The notes under the pieces: generated by a model
Told to the model about the DNA's origin: nothing
Database searches by the model: none
Seen by the model: only the letters and a program-made list of their open reading frames with translations
Shown: positions 1,715-14,655 of the stretch, piece after piece
Layout: each line of letters starts with the position of its first letter
Numbering within the stretch: position 1 is the stretch's first letter
Made by a program: the position numbers and the translations under genes
NCBI GenBank assembly: GCA_003131985.1
Contig: PKWH01000157.1
Location: 13,836 to 48,474, forward strand
DNA: 34,639 bases
Direction of reading: 5' to 3'
DNA from: Acidobacteriota bacterium
GTDB taxonomy: Bacteria; Acidobacteriota; Terriglobia; Acidiferrales; UBA7541

Positions 1715-1740
1715 AAATGGGAGAAGGAGAATTCGAGAAC

Positions 1741-2763
1741 ATGAAAAAGAGCCTGCTAGTTGTGTCGCTCGCGCTCGGTCTGGCAGCCATCACAGCAGCC
1801 CAGAATGGAACGGTGCTGCTAAATTCCGCTGGCGCCACTTTTCCCTATCCGATTTATTCCAAGTGGTTTGACGTTTATCACACCGCGCACCCGAACATTC
1901 AGATTAACTACCAATCCATCGGATCGGGCGGCGGGATACGTCAACTTCAAGCCGGCACCGTGGATTTCGGCGCTTCGGATGGACCCATGACGGACGAGCA
2001 GCTCTCGCAATCGAAGTTCAAGATACTGCATTTCCCAACCGTGCTCGGCGCGGTGGTGCCGACCTACAATATCGCGGGCGTGTCCGGAGAACTAAATTTC
2101 ACGCAGAAGGCATTAGCGGGAATTTATCTCGGAACGATCACCAAGTGGGACGATCCGGAAATCGCCAAAGCGAATGCGGGCGTGAAACTTCCGAATGCCG
2201 ATATCGTCGTAGTTCACCGTTCGGACGGTAGTGGAACGACTTACATCTGGACGGATTTTTTGGCCAAGGTCAGCGAGGATTGGAAGAAAAAAGTGGGGAA
2301 CGCCGCCACATCCGTCAATTGGCCGGCGGGGCTGGGCGGCAAAGGCAACGAGGGCGTGACCGGGCTGGTGAAGCAGACTCCCAACGCGATTGGCTACATC
2401 GAGTTGATCTACGCCGTGCAGAACAATATTCCATACGGAAAAGTTCAGAACGCAGCGGGAAACTTCGTGAAGGCGGATTTGGCAGGAGTGACGGCTGCAG
2501 CCGCCGCTGACGCCAAGAACATTCCGGACGACTTCCGCGTTTCGATCACAAACGCTCCGGGACCGAAGGTTTACCCCGTTTCGAGTTTCACGTGGCTGCT
2601 GATTCCCGCGCAAATTCAGGACGCAGCGAAGCGCGAAGCTATCAAGGGCTTTCTGAAATGGATGTTGGTAGAAGGTCAGAAGTACAATGAGGGCTTAACC
2701 TATGCCCAGCTACCCAAAGAGGTAATCGCGAGGGAGACGAAGGCGATTTCGCTGATTCAGTAA
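1741..2763 (+). CDS. pstS: Phosphate ABC transporter substrate-binding protein PstS
   Basis: Signal peptide MKKSLLVVSLALGLAAITAAQ; GATFPYPIYSKW, GSGGGIRQLQAGTVDFGASDGPM, HRSDGSGTTYIWTDFL. Confidence 0.95.
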   Translation: MKKSLLVVSLALGLAAITAAQNGTVLLNSAGATFPYPIYSKWFDVYHTAHPNIQINYQSIGSGGGIRQLQAGTVDFGASDGPMTDEQLSQSKFKILHFPTVLGAVVPTYNIAGVSGELNFTQKALAGIYLGTITKWDDPEIAKANAGVKLPNADIVVVHRSDGSGTTYIWTDFLAKVSEDWKKKVGNAATSVNWPAGLGGKGNEGVTGLVKQTPNAIGYIELIYAVQNNIPYGKVQNAAGNFVKADLAGVTAAAAADAKNIPDDFRVSITNAPGPKVYPVSSFTWLLIPAQIQDAAKREAIKGFLKWMLVEGQKYNEGLTYAQLPKEVIARETKAISLIQ

Positions 2764-2764
2764 A

Positions 2765-3763
2765 ATGTCCGCTGCCGCTACAACTATCGCGCACGAAGTT
2801 CCGCCGCAAGCGGGACCTCGCGCGTTTCTTCGCCGACTGCGAGGCGGTGACGAAATCGCTCATCTGATTACCCTCACCTTTTCAGCCCTTATCCTCCTCA
2901 TCACCTCCATGCTGGTGTACGAGCTCTGGGCGAATTCACATCTTTCCCGGGCAAAATTCGGATGGATGTTTTTCTGGACCAGGGTGTGGGATCCGAACTT
3001 TGACAACTTTGGTGCCGCACCCTTCATCTATGGCACGCTGGTTACGTCGGCAGTGGCGCTCTGCCTCGCGGTTCCGCTGGGTCTTGCGAGCGCAATTTTT
3101 CTCTCCGAGCTCGCGCCGCGCAAGGTCAGCGACGTCATCTCGTTTTTGATTGATTTGCTGGCGGCCGTCCCCAGCGTGATCTACGGCCTGCTGGGAATTT
3201 TTATTGTCGTGCCAGTGATGCGCACGACGATAGGTCCGGCCCTGATTCACACGCTGGGTAATGTTCCCTACATCGGGGCGCTATTCCACGGACCCAATTA
3301 CGGAGTCGGCTTTCTAACTGCTGGGATCGTTCTGGCGATTATGGTCGTGCCGTTCATTATTTCTGTTTCGCGGGAAGTTCTGTTGACGGTGCCGCGCGAG
3401 CAGCGCGAAGCGGCGCTGGCGATGGGCGCAACGCGATGGGAGTCCACCTGGAAGGTAGTGGTCCCGTGGGCTCGCACCGGCATCATGGGCTCTGTGTTCC
3501 TTGCACTAGCCCGCGCGCTGGGTGAAACGATGGCCGTCACCATGGTCATAGGCAATGCGCCGACGATCGCAGCTTCGCTGCTTTCCCCCGGCGATACCAT
3601 CGCTTCCACCATCGCGAGCCAGTTTACCGAGGCGACTGGAGACTTGTATCTGAGCTCACTGATTGAGCTGGGATTAGTGCTTTTCCTCATCACCTTTATT
3701 CTGAATGGTCTGGCCCGGATTTTGATTGTCGCCACCGGACGCGGAGGAGGCCGGCCCGCATGA
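2765..3763 (+). CDS. pstC: Phosphate ABC transporter permease PstC
   Basis: Permease EAA-like motif REQREAALAMGATRWESTWKVVVPWARTGI; position in pst operon. Confidence 0.93.
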   Translation: MSAAATTIAHEVPPQAGPRAFLRRLRGGDEIAHLITLTFSALILLITSMLVYELWANSHLSRAKFGWMFFWTRVWDPNFDNFGAAPFIYGTLVTSAVALCLAVPLGLASAIFLSELAPRKVSDVISFLIDLLAAVPSVIYGLLGIFIVVPVMRTTIGPALIHTLGNVPYIGALFHGPNYGVGFLTAGIVLAIMVVPFIISVSREVLLTVPREQREAALAMGATRWESTWKVVVPWARTGIMGSVFLALARALGETMAVTMVIGNAPTIAASLLSPGDTIASTIASQFTEATGDLYLSSLIELGLVLFLITFILNGLARILIVATGRGGGRPA

Positions 3764-4614
3764 GCAATGTGCGTATTATCTGGCGAAAGTCATTGAATTT
3801 CGTGATGCTGAGCTTGACCGGGATAGCCGCGCTTGGAGTCGTTTCGATTCTGTTCTTTATCCTCGGATACTTGATCTGGAACGGCGGCAAATCGCTGAAT
3901 TGGAATTTTTTTACGCAGCTCCCGAAGCCTGTGGGTGAAACAGGCGGGGGAATGGCCAACGCCATTGTGGGCAGCCTGAAGCTGCTGATGTTGGCAGCTT
4001 TGATGGGCTTGCCGGTAGGATTGCTTACCGGCGTGTATCTTGCAGAGTTTGGCGGCAAAACGTTTTCGTTTGTCATACGCTACACGACGGATTTGCTGAA
4101 CGGCGTGCCGTCCATCGTTATAGGCATTTTCGCTTACTCGCTGGTGGTGCTGCCGGTGAAACATTTCTCCGCGCTGGCCGGCGGGGTAGCACTGGGAATA
4201 ATGGTGATCCCGATTACGGTGCGCAGCACGGAGGAGTTTCTGAGGTCGGTGCCTGGAAGCCTGCGCGAAGGCGCAATGGCGCTCGGAGCCAGTAAGTGGA
4301 AGACTATCGTTACCGTCGTGCTGCCCGCCGCAAGCGGCGGCATATTAACCGGGATGCTGCTGGCGCTCGCGCGCGTTGCCGGGGAAACTGCGCCGCTGCT
4401 CTTTACCGCCTTCGGCAACCGCTTTTGGAGCCCGGGTTTCGAACAGCCAACCGCTTCGCTTCCGGTAATGATATATACATATGCGATCGCGCCGTATGAT
4501 GATTGGCACCGGCAGGCGTGGGCCGCGGGGCTGGTATTGTTGGGCTTGGTGCTGGTTGCAAATCTAGGTGCCCGTCTTCTACTGAACCGCGGCAGCGCGG
4601 TCAGGAGCACGTGA
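3760..4614 (+). CDS. pstA: Phosphate ABC transporter permease PstA
   Basis: [31 protein letters not shown]; 4-nt overlap with pstC. Confidence 0.93.
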
Positions 4615-4615
4615 T

Positions 4616-5455
4616 ATGCCGTCGATTTCTCAAAGCAGCAATGCCACCGCCGCAAGACTCGCTCCACAAGTGCGTATGAACGAACCTCGCTCGATGGCTG
4701 CAGAAAAGGAGGCGCCGGTGCGCTTTCAGATCTCCGACCTGAATTTTTTTTACGGTCCCAAGCAGGCCATCTTTGGACTGAACCTCAAGATTCCGAAGAA
4801 TAAAGTGACCGCCTTAATCGGTCCTTCCGGGTGCGGCAAGTCGACATTCCTGCGTACTTTGAACCGCATGAACGAAATCATCCGGAACACGCGCGTGGAA
4901 GGCGAAATATTGCTCGATGGCCAAGAGATACATTCGATGGACGTAGTGAGCCTGCGGCGGCTCGTCGGAATGGTGTTTCAACGGCCAAACCCCTTTCCGA
5001 AATCGATTTTTGAAAACGTGGCCTACGGACTTCGCATCAATGGTTATAAGGGTCGGCTCGACGACCTGGTGGAAAGCAGCCTGCACCGCGCGGCACTTTG
5101 GGATGAAGTGAAGGATTACCTTCACAAGTCGGCTTTCGCACTATCGGGCGGGCAGCAGCAGCGGCTGTGTATTGCGCGCGCCCTGGCCGTGAATCCTGAA
5201 GTGCTTCTACTCGACGAGCCTTGCTCCGCGCTCGATCCTGTGACCACGGCTAAGATTGAAGAATTACTGTTTCATCTAAAAGATAGTTGCACGATGGCAA
5301 TCGTGACTCACAACATGCAGCAGGCCGCCCGCGCCAGCGATTTCACAGCTTTCATGCTGGACGGCAAACTCATCGAACACAGTGAGACATCTAAACTATT
5401 CACCACACCTGCCGATCCGCGTACAGAGGCCTACATTACGGGCCGCTTCGGATAA
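4616..5455 (+). CDS. pstB: Phosphate ABC transporter ATP-binding protein PstB
   Basis: Walker [20 protein letters not shown], signature [16 protein letters not shown], Walker [14 protein letters not shown]; ~30 aa N-terminal extension. Confidence 0.95.
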
Positions 5456-5510
5456 AGCGGGCAGCTTAACGGGGATTTGGCGCTGCAACAACGGAAAGAT
5501 ATGAGGAGAC

Positions 5511-6176
5511 ATGGAACGACATTTTGAACGCGACCTTGAGGAACTGAAGCAGCGATTGCTCTGGATGGGAAGCCTCGCCGAGCGAGCCGTCCATCAGGCC
5601 ATCCACGCTGTGTTGGATGCGGAAGAGCATCTCGCCGAAACTGTTTTGATTGAAGAAGACGCAATCAACGAGATTCAGATTGAAATCGACGACCGCGTGC
5701 TGCGCTTGCTGGCCCTGCAGCAGCCCATGGCCGCCGACTTGCGATTCTTGCTTGCGGTTTCACGTATCAACGGAGACCTGGAGCGTATCGGAGACCAGGC
5801 GGTGAATATCGCGCAATCGGCGACGCGTATTATGCGCCATCCGCAGGTTAAGCCCTACGTTGATTTGCCGCGGATGAGCGAGCTAGCCGAAGGGATGGTC
5901 CGCGATAGTTTGAATGCCCTGGTGCGAGGGGATATCGAACTCGCTCATAGCGTGCTGCAGCGAGACGATCAAGTGGATCGCTTGCGCGATCAGCTCTTCC
6001 GGGAGCTGCTAACCTATATGATGGAAAACTCTGCGGTGGTGTTCTCCGCCTTCGAACTTGTTCTGGTGGCGAAGAACATCGAACGCATCGGGGACCACGC
6101 TACAAACATCGCCGAAGACGTGATTTACTTCGTCGCTGGCCGCGACGTGCGCCACCCGGCCCTCGACCGCCGTTAA
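5511..6176 (+). CDS. phoU: PhoU (second paralog)
   Basis: MERHFERDLEELKQRLLWMGSLAERAVHQA; GDLERIGDQAVNIA and KNIERIGDHATNIAEDVIY. Confidence 0.92.
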   Translation: MERHFERDLEELKQRLLWMGSLAERAVHQAIHAVLDAEEHLAETVLIEEDAINEIQIEIDDRVLRLLALQQPMAADLRFLLAVSRINGDLERIGDQAVNIAQSATRIMRHPQVKPYVDLPRMSELAEGMVRDSLNALVRGDIELAHSVLQRDDQVDRLRDQLFRELLTYMMENSAVVFSAFELVLVAKNIERIGDHATNIAEDVIYFVAGRDVRHPALDRR

Positions 6177-6598: not shown

Positions 6599-6813
6599 AT
6601 GTGCCTCACAGCGCCTTGCAAAGCTATCTGAATTATATCCGGCAATCAAGGGCTTGCAAAAAACTTCTAGTAAATATGGCTGACACCAAAAGCAGTCTTC
6701 CTTGACGCATATCCATTGCATTTGTTAGGCTCTGGCCCACTGTCTCTTCGTTGCGTGCGGGGTGTTTTACTCGCAATGGGAGAGTAAGAGCATCTCCTAC
6801 CGTTGGGAGAGTA

Positions 6814-9240
6814 ATGGAAACATCTTCCGCGCTTTTCGAACTCGCGAGCGTATCCTTAGCGTGCCGCGATCAAGATACCCTGCTGAAGACCTTCGCCGCA
6901 CGAGTGGGTACCACACTCGGAGCGCGCGCTGTCCTTGTTTGGACCAGCAACGGAACAGCTGAGGAGCTCATATGCCGCATGCGCTGGACCGAGCCGGGCG
7001 AACGTCTGCATCCCACGGAACTACCTGTCTCCGGAGGAACGCTCGCAATATTGTACCGATCGGCTGCCACTAGGCGCTTGCCCGCGCGTGAAATCGTAGT
7101 AGAAGACCTCGAACATCTCGATGAATTCAGCCGCACGCGCGTGAAATCTGCGCTGTATTCGTCTCTGCCGGGAGCGCAAAGGCCGGAAGGCGTAGTCGAG
7201 GTTCTCAACAAGCGGGCCGGAGACTTTACCGCCGAAGACGCTCACTTTCTGGAGGAAGCATGCGTGCTGGCGGGCCGCGCTCTGACCAATCTGGGCGCGA
7301 TTGAACAGGAACGCCAGTCCCAACTGGCCACACTCGAACGCTTGACCGCGCTATACGATCTGGGCCAGACGTTCACGTCAACTCTCGAATTGGAAGAACT
7401 CCTCCCTATCGTGGCGGGTAAAATCCGCGACATTTTAGGCGCTGGCGCCTGCAACCTATGGCTCGCTTCGCCTGACGGCCAAGAACTCAATCTTGCAAAG
7501 CAGATCGGCGATGACCCTACGATCGAAGAGGATGCCACCGCCTCATTGAGTGAAGGTTTGCTGGCCGAAGTTGCGCAGCAAGCAAACCCGAAGTTGGTCG
7601 AAGACCCGAGCGAGGAAGCCGGACTCGCCGCGCGTGTTGAAGCTGGAGGAGATTTCGAGATTCAGTCCTGGATGGCAGCGCCGCTTCGAAAAGACGACGA
7701 GGTTTTAGGCGTCGTCGAGATAATTAACAAGACGGACGGCACGCTGTTCAATGAAGACGATTTGTTTTTCCTCTCCAGTATCAGCGAACAGGCCGCGGTG
7801 GCCCTGCACAACGCAAACCTGCTGGAATCGGAGCGAAAGGTTCACGCCCTTGATGCTCTGTTGAAAATTTCGCAAGAAATTACGTCCACTCTGGATCTCG
7901 ATCACGTCTTGACTACGGTGGTGGCGCAGTCCGCGTCGGTCGTGCCGTTTGAGACTTGCGTCATTGGATTCTACGACCGCGGGCGCTTCGTCCTGGGCGC
8001 CGTCTCTGGAGAAACGGAAGTTCCGAAGACGCGGGAAATGAGCGAGCTGCGCGAACGCATGGAGTGGGTGGCCGAGCAGGAAAGTCCCGTTTCGGCGAAT
8101 TTGCATGAAGATGGCTGGCAAGCCGAGCCGGAAGAAGCCCGCGCGCAGATTGTCTCGTACCTGGAAACCTACGGGCATCAAGGCTTTTACGGCCTACCTT
8201 TGCGCGACGATCAAGGGACGCTCGGAGCGATGATTCTTCTAAGCAAGGAAGCCGATTTTCTTTCGGAAAGCCATTTGGAAACCCTAGCCATCCTGGCCAG
8301 TCAGACCACTGTCGCCATCCGCAACGCGCAGCTTTATCAGCAAGTGCCGCTCGCAAATATCCTGCAGCCGTTCGCCCAGAGAAAGAAAAAGTTCCTGGCG
8401 GCTGTGCCGCAGAGCCGCATGATGGAATATGCGCAACGCGCCGGGGTTGTGGCCCTGTTCCTGACGATTATCCCCTGGCCTTTGCGCGTCGGCACGGACG
8501 CCACGGTGGTTCCGTTCGAGCGCCGCATGGTGAGCGCAATCGAGGGCGGAGTGGTGAAACAAGTCTTCGTGCGCGAAGGCGATTTGGTGAAGCCAGGGCA
8601 GCTGCTTGCGCAACTTGACGACAGCGAGGATCGCATCAAGCTGATCGAAGCGGACGCGGCGTTGTCTCAGGTGCGGCGTGAATTAGCCGAAGCCGAATTT
8701 CGGAACGACCCCGCTGCAGCAGGCCAGGCCCAGATACGCTCCCAGCTATATTCCTCTGAAGTCGCGCTGGAGCAGCAGCGTATCAATGACGCGCGCCTGA
8801 CCTCGCCGATTGCCGGCATCGTAATCACTCCGAAGGTGGAAGAAAAATCCGGGTCCATGATTAAATCCGGAGACAGTTTCTGCGAAGTAGTGTCTCAGGA
8901 CCGCCTGGCCGCGGAAATGAGCGTCCCTGAAACGGATCTCGTGCTCGTAAATTCCGGAGAAAACGTGTCTCTGAAGTTAAACGCCTTCCCCACGACGACG
9001 TTCGAGGGAACTGTGGATCGCATCGGCGCACAGACTCGGATCGACTCTGGCGACCAATATTTTCTGGTGCGAGCGATATTCGAAAATGCGGGAGGAAAGG
9101 CTCGCAATGGAATGGTCGGGCGAGCGAGAATTCGATCGCGCGGTGGATGGTTCGAAAGCGGATGGTACCCGATAGGGTACGTTATCCTGCGCTCGCCGTT
9201 CAGGTGGGTTTGGCAGAAGGTATGGCCCTGGGTGCCGTGA
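6814..9240 (+). CDS. Multi-GAF protein fused to a transmembrane HlyD-type adaptor
   Basis: ORF 6751..9240, preferred start METSSALF with SD GGGAGAG; three GAF-like repeats (e.g. SWMAAPLRKDDEVLGVVEIINK), one TM (VVALFLTIIPWPL), then barrel-sandwich (GGVVKQVFVREGDLVKPGQLLAQLDDSE ... RLTSPIAGIVITPKVEEKSG). Confidence 0.8.
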   Translation: METSSALFELASVSLACRDQDTLLKTFAARVGTTLGARAVLVWTSNGTAEELICRMRWTEPGERLHPTELPVSGGTLAILYRSAATRRLPAREIVVEDLEHLDEFSRTRVKSALYSSLPGAQRPEGVVEVLNKRAGDFTAEDAHFLEEACVLAGRALTNLGAIEQERQSQLATLERLTALYDLGQTFTSTLELEELLPIVAGKIRDILGAGACNLWLASPDGQELNLAKQIGDDPTIEEDATASLSEGLLAEVAQQANPKLVEDPSEEAGLAARVEAGGDFEIQSWMAAPLRKDDEVLGVVEIINKTDGTLFNEDDLFFLSSISEQAAVALHNANLLESERKVHALDALLKISQEITSTLDLDHVLTTVVAQSASVVPFETCVIGFYDRGRFVLGAVSGETEVPKTREMSELRERMEWVAEQESPVSANLHEDGWQAEPEEARAQIVSYLETYGHQGFYGLPLRDDQGTLGAMILLSKEADFLSESHLETLAILASQTTVAIRNAQLYQQVPLANILQPFAQRKKKFLAAVPQSRMMEYAQRAGVVALFLTIIPWPLRVGTDATVVPFERRMVSAIEGGVVKQVFVREGDLVKPGQLLAQLDDSEDRIKLIEADAALSQVRRELAEAEFRNDPAAAGQAQIRSQLYSSEVALEQQRINDARLTSPIAGIVITPKVEEKSGSMIKSGDSFCEVVSQDRLAAEMSVPETDLVLVNSGENVSLKLNAFPTTTFEGTVDRIGAQTRIDSGDQYFLVRAIFENAGGKARNGMVGRARIRSRGGWFESGWYPIGYVILRSPFRWVWQKVWPWVP

Positions 9241-9259
9241 AGAAAGAGGAATCTTTAAT

Positions 9260-10192
9260 ATGAAACGCGCCACTTTGATCTTAATAATCGCCGCGATGGC
9301 GATTGCCGGAAATGGCTGCGACAAGTCGTCGGTGGCGTCCAGCCCCAAGGATGCGCCGCTACAACCATCCAACACGATTCCATCTCAGGCTCCTGCGCCG
9401 ACCGCTGCTACCTCAAAAGGGCCTGAAACGGGCGATATTCTAAGCGTGCTCACAGTAGAACATCAGGTCGATCTCTCCTCGCAAAGCGATGGCACAGTTA
9501 CATCCCTAACCAAAGACCAAGGTAGTGTGGTCAAAACAGGTGAGATTCTTGGGCAGCTTGACGATCGAACTCTGCAACAGGAACTCATCAAGGCGCGCGA
9601 CGATCTGAAGGTGACTCAGAACAACTTGCAGTACAAAGCAGCGGAACTGAAGGCTAAGGGCGCAGCTTACCGGCGTCAGCAGCTGCTGCGGGAAGCAGGA
9701 CTGTCGAGCCAGGCTGATCTCGAAGCCGCGGAATTCGAAGCAAAAGGCGCTGAGTACGACATGCACGCATATGAGGCTTTGGTGGAAAGCGGTCAAGCCG
9801 AGGTCCACCGTCTCGAAATTGAGATTGACCAGACGATCTTGCGCGCTCCGTTTTCGGGCGTCGTAGTGCGGCGGTACGTTCGAGAAGGGCAAGCCATCGT
9901 CAAGGGCGACAAGTGTTTTCGGGTGAGTCAGCTCTATCCGCTGCAGGTCCAGTTTCAAATTTCTGAATTGGCAAGCCCGCGCCCGGCAGTCGGCGCGCCA
10001 GTTAACTTGATTCTTTTGGGCGGTTCCAATCGGTCGCTGAACGCGAAAGTGGTGAAGGTGAGCCCTACCGTGGATCCGTCCAGCGATAGTTACGATGTGG
10101 TGGCCCAGCTCACTGGTTCGGGGATTTCCGATCTGCGCCCGGGAATGGCTGTGCGGGTCGGATGGCCCGGCACATCGCAACCGAAGCCGTAG
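9260..10192 (+). CDS. HlyD/RND-type membrane fusion protein, putative lipoprotein
   Basis: N-terminus MKRATLILIIAAMAIAGNGC; DGTVTSLTKDQGSVVKTGEILGQLDD and ILRAPFSGVVVRRYVREGQAI; 19-nt gap to upstream gene. Confidence 0.85.
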   Translation: MKRATLILIIAAMAIAGNGCDKSSVASSPKDAPLQPSNTIPSQAPAPTAATSKGPETGDILSVLTVEHQVDLSSQSDGTVTSLTKDQGSVVKTGEILGQLDDRTLQQELIKARDDLKVTQNNLQYKAAELKAKGAAYRRQQLLREAGLSSQADLEAAEFEAKGAEYDMHAYEALVESGQAEVHRLEIEIDQTILRAPFSGVVVRRYVREGQAIVKGDKCFRVSQLYPLQVQFQISELASPRPAVGAPVNLILLGGSNRSLNAKVVKVSPTVDPSSDSYDVVAQLTGSGISDLRPGMAVRVGWPGTSQPKP

Positions 10193-10204
10193 AGGATCTC
10201 GACT

Positions 10205-12352
10205 ATGCGTTTCGGTCCCACCAGTCTTCAAGTCTCCAGCCTACTTGCAAAAGGCCTCAAGCGCCCCAAACTCCGCACGGATCTGCGCATCAGCGAACAA
10301 ACGGTTGCCGGCGAAATCAGTTACGTTGTCAAAAACCGTGAGACGAATTCCTACAACCGGTATGGAGCCACCGAATATCAGCTGCTATCACTTTGCGACG
10401 GAACTCGTACGGCCGCTGAGATCGCACAGGTCATGTCTGAAAAGGATCCCGATTTAACGACGAGCGAGGCCGATGTGCTCGACTTCATGGACTCGGTGGA
10501 ACCCACCATGTGGGAGCGATCAATCGGAGAAAAAAACCTAGCCGTGCTCGAGCGCATTCGCGACGAGCGGAAAGGCCGGGTCGAGCAATCGAGTGTGCTC
10601 TACATCAGCTTTAAAGCCTGGGACCCGGACAAGACACTCACCAAATTGGATCGCTACCTCGGATGGATGTTCACCAAGGGCTTTGTCATCTTTTCTTTGT
10701 TCATATTTGTCGTAGCCGTTTATCTGCTTGCCGGCGATTGGACGCGCGTGCAGCAGGATACTTCGGCCTTGTATAGTTTTGCGGGTAAAAGCGCCTACGA
10801 CATCTGGATCTTTTGGATCCTCCTCCTGGGTCTGGGCGCCATACACGAATTTGGCCACGGGCTCACTTGTAAACATTTTGGCGGTGAAGTCCATCAGATG
10901 GGTTTTTTGCTTATCTATTTCACTCCTGCATTTTTTACCGATACCACGGACATTCTTCTGTTCCAGACCGGAACTCCGCGTCAGTGGGTCATCTTCGCGG
11001 GCATTTGGATTGAACTGGTGATCTGCGGCCTGTCTGCGTTGGTCTGGCATTTCACCGCGCCAGGCTCCCTGACGAACGACTTTTTTTACAAAATGATGCT
11101 GCTGAGCGGGATTCAGGGCGCGCTCGTGAACCTGAACCCGCTCATCAAAGCCGACGGCTACTATGCGCTGTCGCAATTCCTCAAAATCGATAACCTGCGC
11201 GAAGAGTCTTTCGGCTACCTGCGAGCCTGGACGGAAAAATATATTCTTCGGCACGACATAGATTTGCCGCCCTCCAGCAAGCGCCAGCGCCGTGTTTTTT
11301 TCCTGTTCGGAGTCTTGGCCATTATCTACAGCGCGTCGCTTCTGATTATTATGCTTTTGTTTGTTAAGAACATACTCGTAAGCCAAATGGGCAACGAATG
11401 GGGCTATCTCGCAACCCTCGGCGTCATTTATTTCTTTGCCAGGAATAGTATTCGAAAAGGATTGCCTTTAGCTCGGGCTTGGATACGGGACAAGAGGGGA
11501 AAATATATGGCCTGGAAAATGACGCGTGCACAGCAGGTCGGCGCACTGGGATTGATTCTCCTGTTTCTGTTGCCTCCGTTTTCGTCCAAGGTCACCACCG
11601 ATCTGGTGCTGGAGCCCGGTAAAGACGCACGGGTTCGGGCCGTGGTGAACGGCAGAATTCAAAAAGTGTTTGTTCACGAGGGGGACGAAGTAAAAGCAGG
11701 CCAAATGTTGGCCGTTTTGGAAAATCCCGACATAAGCGCTGATGCACAATCGCTCACGCAACAGTTAGCGCTCGCCAGCAGTAAGGTTCGCAATAATCAG
11801 GATCGCTCGGACTTTAGCCAAGCGGCGCAGGTGGTTCGTGACCGCGACCGGCTCGAACAGGAGTTGTCTGAGGCGCAGAAGAGAGTGCAAGACCTCGAAA
11901 TTCGGGCTCCCATGGACGGTATCGTTGTCACTTCCAACGTGGACCAGGAAGCTGGCCAATATTTCTCGGCAGGAGACGAGTTTGCCCGGCTGGTGGATCG
12001 AACCACCATGAAGGCGCGTATTCTTGTGCAGGACCGCGAGCTTCCGGACGTTCAACCCGGCGCTCCTGCAAAGGTGAAGGTGCTCCCATTTCCGTACAGA
12101 ACTTACTCGGGCCACGTCGACAAAATACTTCCGGCTGCGGCGCTGGATCATCCAGTCGCTCAGACTGAAGAGCTGGAGCGTCTAGGGCAGGAATTGGCGA
12201 ATTTCGTGGCGGTTGAGATGGAGATCCCAAACCCTGATGGGTCGCTGCGGGAAGGCATGACCGGCAAGGCAAAGATTTCTGGCGCCAGGCATTCCTTAGC
12301 CTGGGAGGCCGGGCAAGGGGCATGGCGCTGGGTGCGTTCGCAGTTTTGGTAA
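10205..12352 (+). CDS. Three-part protein: PqqD-like N-terminal domain, M50 (site-2-protease-like) membrane metalloprotease, C-terminal HlyD barrel
   Basis: PqqD-like YQLLSLCDGTRTAAEIAQVMSEKDPDLTTSEADVLDFMDSV; zinc motif AIHEFGHGLTCKHFGGEV and second-half NLNPLIKADGYYALSQFL; HlyD GRIQKVFVHEGDEVKAGQMLAVLENPD. Confidence 0.85.
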   Translation: MRFGPTSLQVSSLLAKGLKRPKLRTDLRISEQTVAGEISYVVKNRETNSYNRYGATEYQLLSLCDGTRTAAEIAQVMSEKDPDLTTSEADVLDFMDSVEPTMWERSIGEKNLAVLERIRDERKGRVEQSSVLYISFKAWDPDKTLTKLDRYLGWMFTKGFVIFSLFIFVVAVYLLAGDWTRVQQDTSALYSFAGKSAYDIWIFWILLLGLGAIHEFGHGLTCKHFGGEVHQMGFLLIYFTPAFFTDTTDILLFQTGTPRQWVIFAGIWIELVICGLSALVWHFTAPGSLTNDFFYKMMLLSGIQGALVNLNPLIKADGYYALSQFLKIDNLREESFGYLRAWTEKYILRHDIDLPPSSKRQRRVFFLFGVLAIIYSASLLIIMLLFVKNILVSQMGNEWGYLATLGVIYFFARNSIRKGLPLARAWIRDKRGKYMAWKMTRAQQVGALGLILLFLLPPFSSKVTTDLVLEPGKDARVRAVVNGRIQKVFVHEGDEVKAGQMLAVLENPDISADAQSLTQQLALASSKVRNNQDRSDFSQAAQVVRDRDRLEQELSEAQKRVQDLEIRAPMDGIVVTSNVDQEAGQYFSAGDEFARLVDRTTMKARILVQDRELPDVQPGAPAKVKVLPFPYRTYSGHVDKILPAAALDHPVAQTEELERLGQELANFVAVEMEIPNPDGSLREGMTGKAKISGARHSLAWEAGQGAWRWVRSQFW

Positions 12353-12393: not shown

Positions 12394-12429
12394 CAAAAAA
12401 AGGGCTGCCGTTCCTGGGACGGCAGCCCT
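12394..12429 (-). terminator. Rho-independent terminator of micropeptide gene 1
   Basis: 10-bp perfect stem AGGGCTGCCG/CGGCAGCCCT (12401-12410/12420-12429); read on minus it is followed by a T-run. Confidence 0.8.
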
Positions 12430-12490
12430 TGGTAGTGCAACTGCTAACTCTGCTTGGGCGCAAAGCCCAATTGTTACTGGTCTAAGCCAA

Positions 12491-12574
12491 TTAGCCGCGG
12501 GCTGGTCCGTGAACGGTCAGCGGCTTCACAGATCCCAGCTTCTTTCCCTTTTTCACTGTCTTTGCTTTTGCCAT
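12491..12574 (-). CDS. Lys-rich micropeptide 1 (27 aa) MAKAKTVKKGKKLGSVKPLTVHGPARG, putative precursor/secreted peptide
   Basis: Manual translation; SD AAGGAG upstream; sigma-54 promoter match and terminator in the expected places; paralog at 12987-13061. Confidence 0.8.
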   Translation of the reverse strand: MAKAKTVKKGKKLGSVKPLTVHGPARG

Positions 12575-12628
12575 GGTCTTGAGTCTCCTTAAGATTTTTT
12601 GTTTTCTTGCTGCCTGCACTGCTGCTAG

Positions 12629-12644
12629 TGCAATCGGCGCGCCA
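12629..12644 (-). promoter_or_regulatory. Sigma-54 (-24/-12) promoter of micropeptide gene 1
   Basis: Minus strand TGGCGCGCCGATTGCA fits TGGCRCG-N4-TTGCA with GG-N10-GC spacing; about 55 nt upstream of the ATG. Confidence 0.8.
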
Positions 12645-12890
12645 AACTGTCAACCGGCCCACGTGAGAAGCTGTACTTGATTTGAAAGCACTTATCGACG
12701 GCACGAAGCAGCGCGCGAATGGCCTCGATACCAAATGTGTTTAATTTTTGAGTTCGAGTTGAATAATTCAATATGCAGGCGAGGCCTTAAGATCCTCATC
12801 GCGATTGCAGAGCCGGAAGAGCAATGTCGGAAGAAGATGGATGCGGATCTGAACTGCTGGGACGAACTGGGGCGAGGTTGCTCCGGCAAA

Positions 12891-12920
12891 AAGAAAAGCT
12901 GCCAGCCTTTCGGTGGCAGC
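12891..12920 (-). terminator. Rho-independent terminator of micropeptide gene 2
   Basis: Stem GCTGCCA/TGGCAGC (12898-12904/12914-12920), followed on minus by TTTTCTTTTT. Confidence 0.75.
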
Positions 12921-12986
12921 CCGCTAGTTCCGTATCAGCTATCTATCGGTGCGCAGTCGAACCGCTGCACCTGTGACGCGAAACGC

Positions 12987-13061
12987 TTAATTGCCCCCCC
13001 ATCGGATTAGGGGCTTGGTTTTTTCCAGCTTCTTTGCCTTCTTCAAGGTTTTCTTTGCCAT
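12987..13061 (-). CDS. Lys-rich micropeptide 2 (24 aa) MAKKTLKKAKKLEKTKPLIRWGGN
   Basis: Manual translation; SD GGAGGA; N-terminal 18 residues align with micropeptide 1; own promoter and terminator. Confidence 0.8.
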   Translation of the reverse strand: MAKKTLKKAKKLEKTKPLIRWGGN

Positions 13062-13113
13062 GACACTTCCTCCGCGTTTGGGGTACAGCTCACGCTGGCC
13101 ACACCTTGCTCTG

Positions 13114-13129
13114 TGCAAAACCGGTTCCA
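13114..13129 (-). promoter_or_regulatory. Sigma-54 (-24/-12) promoter of micropeptide gene 2
   Basis: Minus strand TGGAACCGGTTTTGCA: TGGaAC-N5-TTGCA with GG-N10-GC spacing; about 52 nt upstream of the ATG. Confidence 0.72.
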
Positions 13130-13266
13130 ATGTCGAAGGGAAACGCTCCGAAACTAAAGTACTGAAGGAAAACAGGTTAGAGTGTTTAGGCCGTTTTCTC
13201 TCGTCGATGGAGCGCAGAATTCTGTTGAAATTCTCACCGCGACGATTAAAAAGTCACCCGAAAAAC

Positions 13267-14655
13267 CTACAGGTTATACTTACGACATAAGTAGTTCAAC
13301 CGGTTCCGGTCCACTCCCAGCAATCGCGCGGCATCCGCTTTTCCTTCTTTAGCCTGCTCTAGAGCTTCCTGAACCCAGCGACGCTCGAAAGTCTCCATTT
13401 CCTTGGCCAAATTGATCCCGCCCGAAGGTAGCCGGAACCGGTTCCGAGAATCGCGCCCGGAAGCTTGCACAATTTCGCCCGGGAGGTCCTTCAAAGAGAT
13501 CACTTCGCCGTCCGTCATTACCACGAGTCTTTGAATTGCGTTCTGGAGTTCCCTGACGTTGCCAGGCCAGGGATAGCGCTTCAGCGCTAACATGGCATCG
13601 TCGGCTATTCGTTTAGGAGGAAAGCTGTTGGCAGCGCAATAAACGCTGACGAAGTAATCCGTTAGCACGGGTATATCTTCTATCCTCTCGCGCAGCGACG
13701 GAACGAAAATGGGCACCACATGAATCCGGTAGTAGAGGTCCTCGCGAAACCGTTCTTCGCGAACCATTTCCTCCAGATCTTCGTTCGTCGCGCTAATCAG
13801 CCGAAAATCTATGCGGATAGGCTTTTTGCCACCTAGCCGCGTGAATGAACGATCCTCTAGAACGCGCAGGAGTTTGCTCTGGAGCGCGGGCGTGAGCGTC
13901 GCAATTTCATCCAGGAAAAGCGTCCCTTGATGCGCCATTTCAACTCGGCCTTCCTTCATGGCTGTTGCGCCGGTAAAGGCTCCCTTCTCATAACCAAATA
14001 ACTCCGCTTCCATTAAGCCCTCGGGAAGAGCGGCACAATTCACGCTGACGAATGCGCGGTTTCGTCGAGGGCTCTGTTCGTGAAGCGCTCGCGCCACCAA
14101 TTCCTTACCCACCCCGCTCTCTCCCCGGATGATAACGTTCGTGGTCGCCCGGGCCATTCGTTTTATGGAATCGAACACGTGGTTCATGGCGTCTGTCGAG
14201 CCGATCAAATCGCCATGCGTACTCTTGCGGCTTATCTCCTGGCGGAGAATTCGATTTTCGCGCTGGATGTGTAATTTCTCAACGGCGCGCTCAAGCAGAT
14301 GTCGAAGAACGTCCGTATCAATAGGCTTGATGAAGTAGTCGTAAGAGCCTGCATCGATTACTTTCAAGGCGGTGGCTTTTGTTTCGTCAGAGCTAAGCAC
14401 GATTACGAGCGTGTCAATTTCACTTCCTACCAGGCGGGCAAGCAGTTCGGCGCATTCGCGGACGCCTCCGTCACCGAGCGGGAGGCCCAGTAGCAGGACG
14501 TCGAGCGCCGACCCCTGGAGGAGGCTGTAGGCCGCTGCCATATCCTCGCCTTCGAAGACTTCGAACTCCGATCGCAGAGCGGACGCAATCTTCGAGCGAA
14601 GGCTGTGGTCATCGTCAACAATGGCTACTTTGGGTTTAGTCGCTACGGGAGTGAT
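13267..14655 (-). CDS. NtrC-family sigma-54-dependent activator with degenerate receiver domain
   Basis: GESGVGKELVARAL, GAFTGA, FLDEI, R-finger region and Fis HTH ADAARLLGVDRNRLNYLCRKY; in-frame receiver N-terminus KPKVAIVDDDHSLRSKIASAL lies upstream of the tracked start; 5' end uncertain (no ATG/GTG/TTG). Confidence 0.85.
   Translation of the reverse strand: MTPVATKPKVAIVDDDHSLRSKIASALRSEFEVFEGEDMAAAYSLLQGSALDVLLLGLPLGDGGVRECAELLARLVGSEIDTLVIVLSSDETKATALKVIDAGSYDYFIKPIDTDVLRHLLERAVEKLHIQRENRILRQEISRKSTHGDLIGSTDAMNHVFDSIKRMARATTNVIIRGESGVGKELVARALHEQSPRRNRAFVSVNCAALPEGLMEAELFGYEKGAFTGATAMKEGRVEMAHQGTLFLDEIATLTPALQSKLLRVLEDRSFTRLGGKKPIRIDFRLISATNEDLEEMVREERFREDLYYRIHVVPIFVPSLRERIEDIPVLTDYFVSVYCAANSFPPKRIADDAMLALKRYPWPGNVRELQNAIQRLVVMTDGEVISLKDLPGEIVQASGRDSRNRFRLPSGGINLAKEMETFERRWVQEALEQAKEGKADAARLLGVDRNRLNYLCRKYNL

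Follow-up and report, generated by a model that had tools for sequence, protein, structure and literature searches.

Two sites on the minus strand, at 12629-12644 and 13114-13129 of the window (the whole 34,639-nucleotide stretch of Acidobacteriota DNA analysed here), are almost certainly sigma-54 promoters, as judged from sequence comparison, each serving a micropeptide gene of its own (pep1 and pep2). For the locus as a whole, the best reading, which we consider probable, is that sigma-54 and an enhancer-binding activator control RiPP-like micropeptides, which would be recognised, cleaved and exported by an adjoining module centred on an RRE-M50-HlyD protein.

The host assembly comprises 3.95 Mb at 77% completeness, and the named genomes closest to it are Acidobacteria MAGs recovered from environmental metagenomes, palsa among them. 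Both micropeptide genes lie on the minus strand between a convergent plus-strand operon (6751-12352) and the minus-strand gene of a sigma-54 activator, with the following features:

6751-9240, plus strand: triple GAF-HlyD fusion protein of up to 829 aa, whose true start may be downstream of 6751
9260-10192, plus strand: HlyD/RND-type periplasmic adaptor, 310 aa
10205-12352, plus strand: RRE-M50-HlyD protein, 715 aa, with a predicted N-terminal RRE fold, an M50 metalloprotease and a C-terminal HlyD/barrel-sandwich domain
12400-12430, minus strand: intrinsic terminator of pep1, 12-bp stem and T run (-23.8 kcal/mol, z -5.2)
12491-12574, minus strand: pep1 micropeptide gene, MAKAKTVKKGKKLGSVKPLTVHGPARG, 27 aa, with a conserved N-terminus
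12585-12590, minus strand: Shine-Dalgarno sequence of pep1, AAGGAG
12629-12644, minus strand: sigma-54 promoter of pep1, TGGCGCGCCGATTGCA, with the -24 GG and -12 GC
12759-12771, unstranded: predicted activator site of pep1, the palindrome TTGAATTATTCAA, located 114 nt ahead of the -24 element and also conserved at the related loci L038, L039 and L045
12893-12911, minus strand: terminator-like hairpin 3' of pep2, weaker (z -2.2)
12987-13061, minus strand: pep2 micropeptide gene, MAKKTLKKAKKLEKTKPLIRWGGN, 24 aa, fitting the family consensus
13068-13073, minus strand: Shine-Dalgarno sequence of pep2, GGAGGA
13114-13129, minus strand: sigma-54 promoter of pep2, TGGAACCGGTTTTGCA, with 2 mismatches to the consensus
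13224-13238, unstranded: probable weaker activator site of pep2, GTTGAAATTCTCACC (minus strand GTGAGAATTTCAA), 2 mismatches, 95 nt before the -24 element
13267-14655, minus strand: sigma-54 enhancer-binding protein with a receiver-like domain, an AAA+ domain with GAFTGA and a Fis-type HTH

Upstream of the exporter operon the window also carries phosphate uptake genes (1717-6176, plus strand: PstS-like, two permease-like ORFs, an ABC ATPase and PhoU-like), and PstS/PhoU-like genes precede the operon in L055, L056 and L059 as well, for which function and mere synteny are both possible.

Promoters, activator sites and the activator

An earlier, sequence-only reading of this DNA had placed the two promoters at precisely these positions, and the GG-N10-GC spacing it gave them is exact in both. 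Against the published consensus TGGCACG-N4-TTGCW (PMC3844500), the pep1 site is a full match and the pep2 site a near-full one (10 of 12 positions), just as had been read. The distances from the end of the site to the ATG, proposed as 52-55 nt, measure 54 nt for pep1 and 52 nt for pep2, and with transcription predicted to start at ~12618 and ~13103, the leaders come to about 42-44 nt, close to the ~40 nt anticipated. The same reading held the doubled layout to be unlikely by chance. This holds for the position of the sites and their recurrence in relatives, whereas the consensus match itself is not rare in the genome: TGGCRCGN4TTGCW occurs 6 times in the assembly against 4 for a reversed control, so that a match alone is not significant; the other five full-consensus matches lie mostly within long open frames, and the window alone holds 12 GG-N10-GC sites scoring at least 0.88. 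Consensus strength by itself was accordingly rejected as evidence.

Recurrence was assessed on peptide relatives gathered by their amino-acid motif only; a few of the searched contigs had been fetched through the activator-site search, and still none of the 32 distinct genes was picked on its promoter. A GG-N10-GC site (score at least 0.76) ending 43-64 nt before the ATG precedes 26 of these 32, against a background of 2.9% at random positions and 3.5% at the starts of ORFs of at least 100 aa; for sites scoring at least 0.9 the background is 0.08%. The remaining six have no recognisable sigma-54 site, one of them bordering an assembly gap. Three of the 32 are paralogues on other contigs of the host genome (C191, and C293 twice), where sites and spacing recur as they do in orthologues across the family; the genome-wide check for further copies in front of similar micropeptides, suggested by the earlier reading, thus did find them. 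In a wider set of 47 genes, chosen partly on the promoter, the first T of the -12 TGC is invariant, though only GC was required. Moreover, in an alignment of four species the region upstream of pep1 is conserved in islands, namely the -24/-12 element, the Shine-Dalgarno-bearing leader and the far-upstream palindrome, with diverged DNA between them, and the pep2 orthologue in L039 has the promoter TGGCACTCCTTTTGCC at 47 nt.

Further upstream lie the putative activator sites. When the 250 nt ahead of the -24 element were examined for 51 peptide genes, 22 showed TTGAA-N3-TTCAA with at most one mismatch, compared with 1.5% of shuffles, and all 22 sites lie 95-118 nt from the -24 element, with a chance of ~4e-21 if the genes were independent, which orthologues are not. 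Their distances group at 95-99, 107-108 and 114-118, with steps of about one helical turn. A periodicity test is significant, but it fits best at periods of 9-10, so that helical phasing can fairly be read from the sequence data, not proved by them. Sigma-54 upstream activator sites usually stand ~70-150 bp upstream (PMC3844500). The pep1 palindrome is one of only four exact copies of TTGAANNNTTCAA in the 3.95 Mb assembly, and the weaker pep2 site is conserved in L039 and L018. Used alone as a genome-wide finder, exact TTGAANNNTTCAA was only partly specific and was set aside in that role, for which adding the promoter pattern helped: the composite palindrome-N92-120-TGGN9TGC occurs at three places in the host genome (pep1, the C191 peptide and one other) and nowhere in the reversed control. 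Exact palindromes also revealed new peptide genes in another genome, G069, on contigs C11 (two, divergent) and C27, while most other fetched ones had no such peptide gene nearby. Many genomes of the genus contain the exact palindrome TTGAATCCTTCAA/TTGAAGGATTCAA, mostly as a single copy and away from known micropeptides, as seen in the whole genomes G000 (the host), G063-G066, G069, G074 and G076.

The adjoining gene does encode a sigma-54 activator, as had been proposed, with a GYEKGAFTGA loop and a Fis-type HTH. The host also encodes rpoN (contig C102, E 2.5e-114, above the family cut-off), which is found in 19 of 20 genomes of the genus, the host included. Paralogues, orthologues, the conserved block, the clustered activator sites, rpoN and the GAFTGA activator all support the earlier sigma-54 interpretation. 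The probable start of the activator is an ATC codon at 14653-14655 (462 aa), not the ATG at 14541 (424 aa): the frame is open up to the ATC, CGGAGA precedes it, and the same codon is ATC in all seven relatives checked (L040, L043, L045, L046, L047, L097 and L099), more distant relatives having ATG, TTG or GTG there. A conserved rare start codon has a parallel in infC. The receiver domain (~14460-14655, minus strand) retains the acidic pocket VDDD, the phospho-acceptor Asp being Gly or Ala in the host genus and present in several distant relatives (e.g., L107, L109 and L110); the substitution suggests phosphorylation-independent control of the activator.

Micropeptides, the proposed exporter module and SET-domain neighbours

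The micropeptides share the consensus MAxKxLKKxKKLxxTKPL, with an N-terminal half also rendered MAKKxLKKxKKLExTKPL, which is conserved and lysine-rich, followed by a variable C-terminal tail; across family members the genes encode 21-50 aa. On comparison they appear to be real coding genes. Over the first 18 codons, pep1 differs from its closest orthologues in L038 and L039 by synonymous changes only, its tail varies among relatives yet stays in frame, and the nonapeptide KKLEATKPL is encoded by eight different DNA sequences that vary at eight third, two first and no second codon positions. Because a terminator-like hairpin follows each peptide gene, pep1 and pep2 are most likely single-gene transcription units. 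None of the peptides searched against Pfam and NCBIfam gave a meaningful match, only spurious collagen-like matches to repeats. A strict KKL[DE]..TKPL DNA pattern, applied phylum-wide, gave only three matches outside the host genome and no clear family members, so that the peptide sequence appears to be specific to the family, and the RRE-M50-HlyD module is not.

This module, [GAF-HlyD, HlyD, M50-HlyD] with peptides and activator, keeps its order and orientation within the family, with one to four peptides detected per locus and an own promoter for most. The central protein has intact protease motifs (HEFGH and NLNPLIKADGYY). Its residues 1-119, modelled from six sequences (mean pLDDT 75) and compared with the PDB by Foldseek, best match TbiB1 with leader, lasso B1 with leader and CteB, with probabilities of 0.97-1.00 for the best of each and modest E-values from 0.013; as modelled, the N-terminus thus resembles leader-binding RiPP recognition elements. 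From the RRE-like fold, the intact protease and the HlyD part, we infer a protein able to bind a leader, cleave within the membrane and span the periplasm. Within the genus, such peptides are found in 11 of 11 genomes with full-length M50-HlyD and in at most one of nine without it. Relatives of M50-HlyD at E<1e-40 occur in 58 of 396 Acidobacteriota genomes, and at distant loci the gap between M50-HlyD and the activator, read at nine of them, holds one small ORF with a sigma-54-like site 28-73 nt upstream in eight (L271, L273-L275 and L277-L280, the exception being L282). Five of these eight share a start of the form ~xIQKKSL or a variant, and repeats in tandem, for instance (NKLAP)n, (NSPLS)n or (STNLAK)n, are present in most, which, on the sequences, is the architecture of a leader plus a variable core. 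An (M)xIQKKSL-like start followed by repeats, among them (NKLAP)n, (NSPLS)n, (LGK)n and (KMH)n, each with a sigma-54-like site, was seen in the gaps of L273, L274, L275, L278 and L279 and in L088-L092.

Near M50-HlyD in one genus there is also a second conserved small protein, MDILICLWLLAL...DTCGFC..., with a hydrophobic start and a Cys pair, whose genes have GG-N10-GC 60-61 nt before the ATG:

L105, 4552, minus strand: second small protein
L106, 13103, minus strand: second small protein
L107, 12197, minus strand: second small protein
L109, 9503, plus strand: second small protein

In relatives, a further kind of gene accompanies the peptides. The family has few small SET-domain proteins bearing NHSCxPN and post-SET motifs (17 strong matches in 89 genomes). 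For ten of the 17 genes, a micropeptide gene carrying a sigma-54-like site lies no more than ~1 kb away, and an eleventh adjoins a lysine-rich peptide lacking such a site. At about five known peptide genes per genome, we estimate the chance of such proximity at well below 1% per SET gene. SET genes adjoining sigma-54-driven lysine-rich micropeptides were noted in L160 (1417-1899, minus strand), L163, L172, L174, L175, L177, L178, L156 and L161. The proteins match Pfam SET (E 1.3e-19) and carry NHSCxPN and the post-SET cysteine motif. The window's two closest relatives, with a 91% identical M50-HlyD, carry the SET gene within the module, immediately following pep1; in the window, only the terminator occupies the corresponding 138 bp, and the 77% complete host genome yielded no SET gene. 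SET genes outside the family belong mostly to other subfamilies and have no K-rich peptide gene nearby, so that on present data the link is confined to the family. The position of a SET lysine methyltransferase beside lysine-rich peptides suggests peptide methylation in these relatives, the window itself not being covered.

Weighing the readings

Putting these observations together, sigma-54 RNA polymerase would read each micropeptide gene from its own -24/-12 promoter, through a leader of ~42 nt to the terminator-like hairpin, and the activator would bind TTGAA-N3-TTCAA some 95-118 bp upstream of the -24 element, turning on pep1, pep2 and the dispersed paralogues together. The N-terminal half of the peptide would serve as a leader bound by the RRE at the front of M50-HlyD, the M50 intramembrane metalloprotease would trim the peptide, and its passage across the envelope would fall to the HlyD parts together with the GAF-HlyD and HlyD proteins. 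Before these steps, the peptide is probably modified by the SET-domain lysine methyltransferase in some relatives. That the micropeptides are the substrates exported by this module we regard as fairly probable, from the conserved neighbourhood and the domain content; for the dispersed paralogues, which do not adjoin exporter genes, export is assumed. The peptides are short, with a conserved putative leader and a variable core, and an RRE-containing protein lies nearby (with modest Foldseek E-values), as is looked for in RiPPs; neither an ABC or RND pump nor a classical RiPP tailoring enzyme was seen in the window's module. The most natural guess is that the released peptide is a signalling or cationic antagonistic peptide. 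Only tentatively, and at less than an even chance, would we see here an undescribed Acidobacteriota peptide class, comprising sigma-54/enhancer-regulated, lysine-rich or repeat micropeptides with a leader read by RRE-M50-HlyD, partly N-methylated on lysine by a dedicated SET enzyme.

It is hardly credible that the -24/-12 matches are fortuitous and another promoter is used. Consensus matches alone are common in the host genome, as such an explanation would have it, but the position of the sites, their recurrence in paralogues, their conservation and the clustering of activator sites all speak against it, and the sole sigma-70-like match is weak and on the opposite strand. Could the products instead be sigma-54-driven sRNAs, terminated transcripts of ~190 nt acting as RNA with incidental ORFs? 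Such short, single-gene terminated units, with predicted transcripts of about 220 nt or less, do have the layout known for the sigma-54-dependent sRNAs glmY and glmZ, both listed among sigma-54 targets (PMC3844500). What is conserved, however, is the amino-acid sequence and not the RNA, as the eight encodings of one nonapeptide with mostly third-position changes and the purely synonymous differences from the closest orthologues indicate; a Shine-Dalgarno sequence and an ATG stand consistently at fixed places, there is no Rfam match, and the leaders show no unusual folding, which makes this explanation very improbable.

An intracellular role has more in its favour and is still unlikely. The peptides could bind nucleic acids or membranes, or regulate the activator, the proximity to RRE-M50-HlyD then reflecting shared regulation; their high positive charge, a composition like that of histone tails and the neighbouring SET genes fit nucleic-acid binding, no obvious signal peptide is present, and several copies lie away from the exporter. 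Against this stands the strict neighbourhood with a protein that bears a leader-binding fold and an M50 protease, and the fact that in other families the peptides in this gap are repeat peptides that look unrelated and have a conserved start of their own, which is what a module handling varied cores would lead one to expect.

If the export reading is true, an uncharacterised RRE-M50-HlyD exporter gains a substrate, and a phylum-wide peptide-export system would exist in soil bacteria that are abundant and about whose specialised metabolism little is known. Small bacterial SET-domain methyltransferases would likewise gain a proposed role, with an enzyme of the histone-methyltransferase type serving as a bacterial peptide-tailoring enzyme. 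Genes of only 21-50 aa are routinely missed, and promoter and activator site together act as a finder by which new micropeptide genes were located without their sequence.

Relation to known systems

The regulatory part resembles NtrC-type sigma-54 systems in its GG-N10-GC, invariant TGC, dedicated GAFTGA activator and palindromic upstream sites at the usual range, and differs from them in that the targets are dispersed single-gene micropeptide units and the REC phospho-acceptor is Gly or Ala in the genus. The closest named relative of the activator is PrsR, the PEP-CTERM response regulator (TIGR02915), which it matches at 401.7 bits, below the cut-off of 502.6, and unlike those of PrsR its targets are not PEP-CTERM proteins; in PADLOC only its AAA+ part was matched, to RtcR-like models.

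We take the peptides of the window to be unlike daptide precursors. The M50-HlyD protein is homologous to the daptide intramembrane metalloprotease family (NF041824) in its N-terminal and protease regions (177.6 bits), but falls below the cut-off of 300, is fused to HlyD and has no daptide tailoring genes seen adjacent. To the M50 RiPP-associated protease of epipeptides, YydH/LiaK (NF058609), its similarity is weak (42 bits, under the cut-off of 225), and no epipeptide radical-SAM gene was seen in the module. As in NHLP/NHLM bacteriocin export (TIGR03794) and other HlyD-type exporters, an HlyD-type adaptor stands beside small peptide genes; unlike in NHLP/NHLM, the scores are 21.9-29.2 bits against a cut-off of 156.2 and the module has no peptidase-ABC transporter.

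No curated model of a named peptide system matched above its cut-off. In the literature we found nothing on sigma-54 with RiPPs or micropeptides and M50/HlyD, nor on SET with RiPPs in such a system, both being weak negatives, as most subscription journals lie outside the coverage. The nearest published idea comes from Myxococcus xanthus (PMC7910581), where sigma-54 and an enhancer-binding protein likewise govern specialised-metabolite genes, in that case for polyketides and non-ribosomal peptides and not for RiPP-like micropeptides. Each component is of a known kind (sigma-54 promoters, RREs, M50 RiPP proteases, HlyD exporters); the way they are combined at this locus and the peptide families appear to be new, with a fair chance that they represent a new RiPP class.
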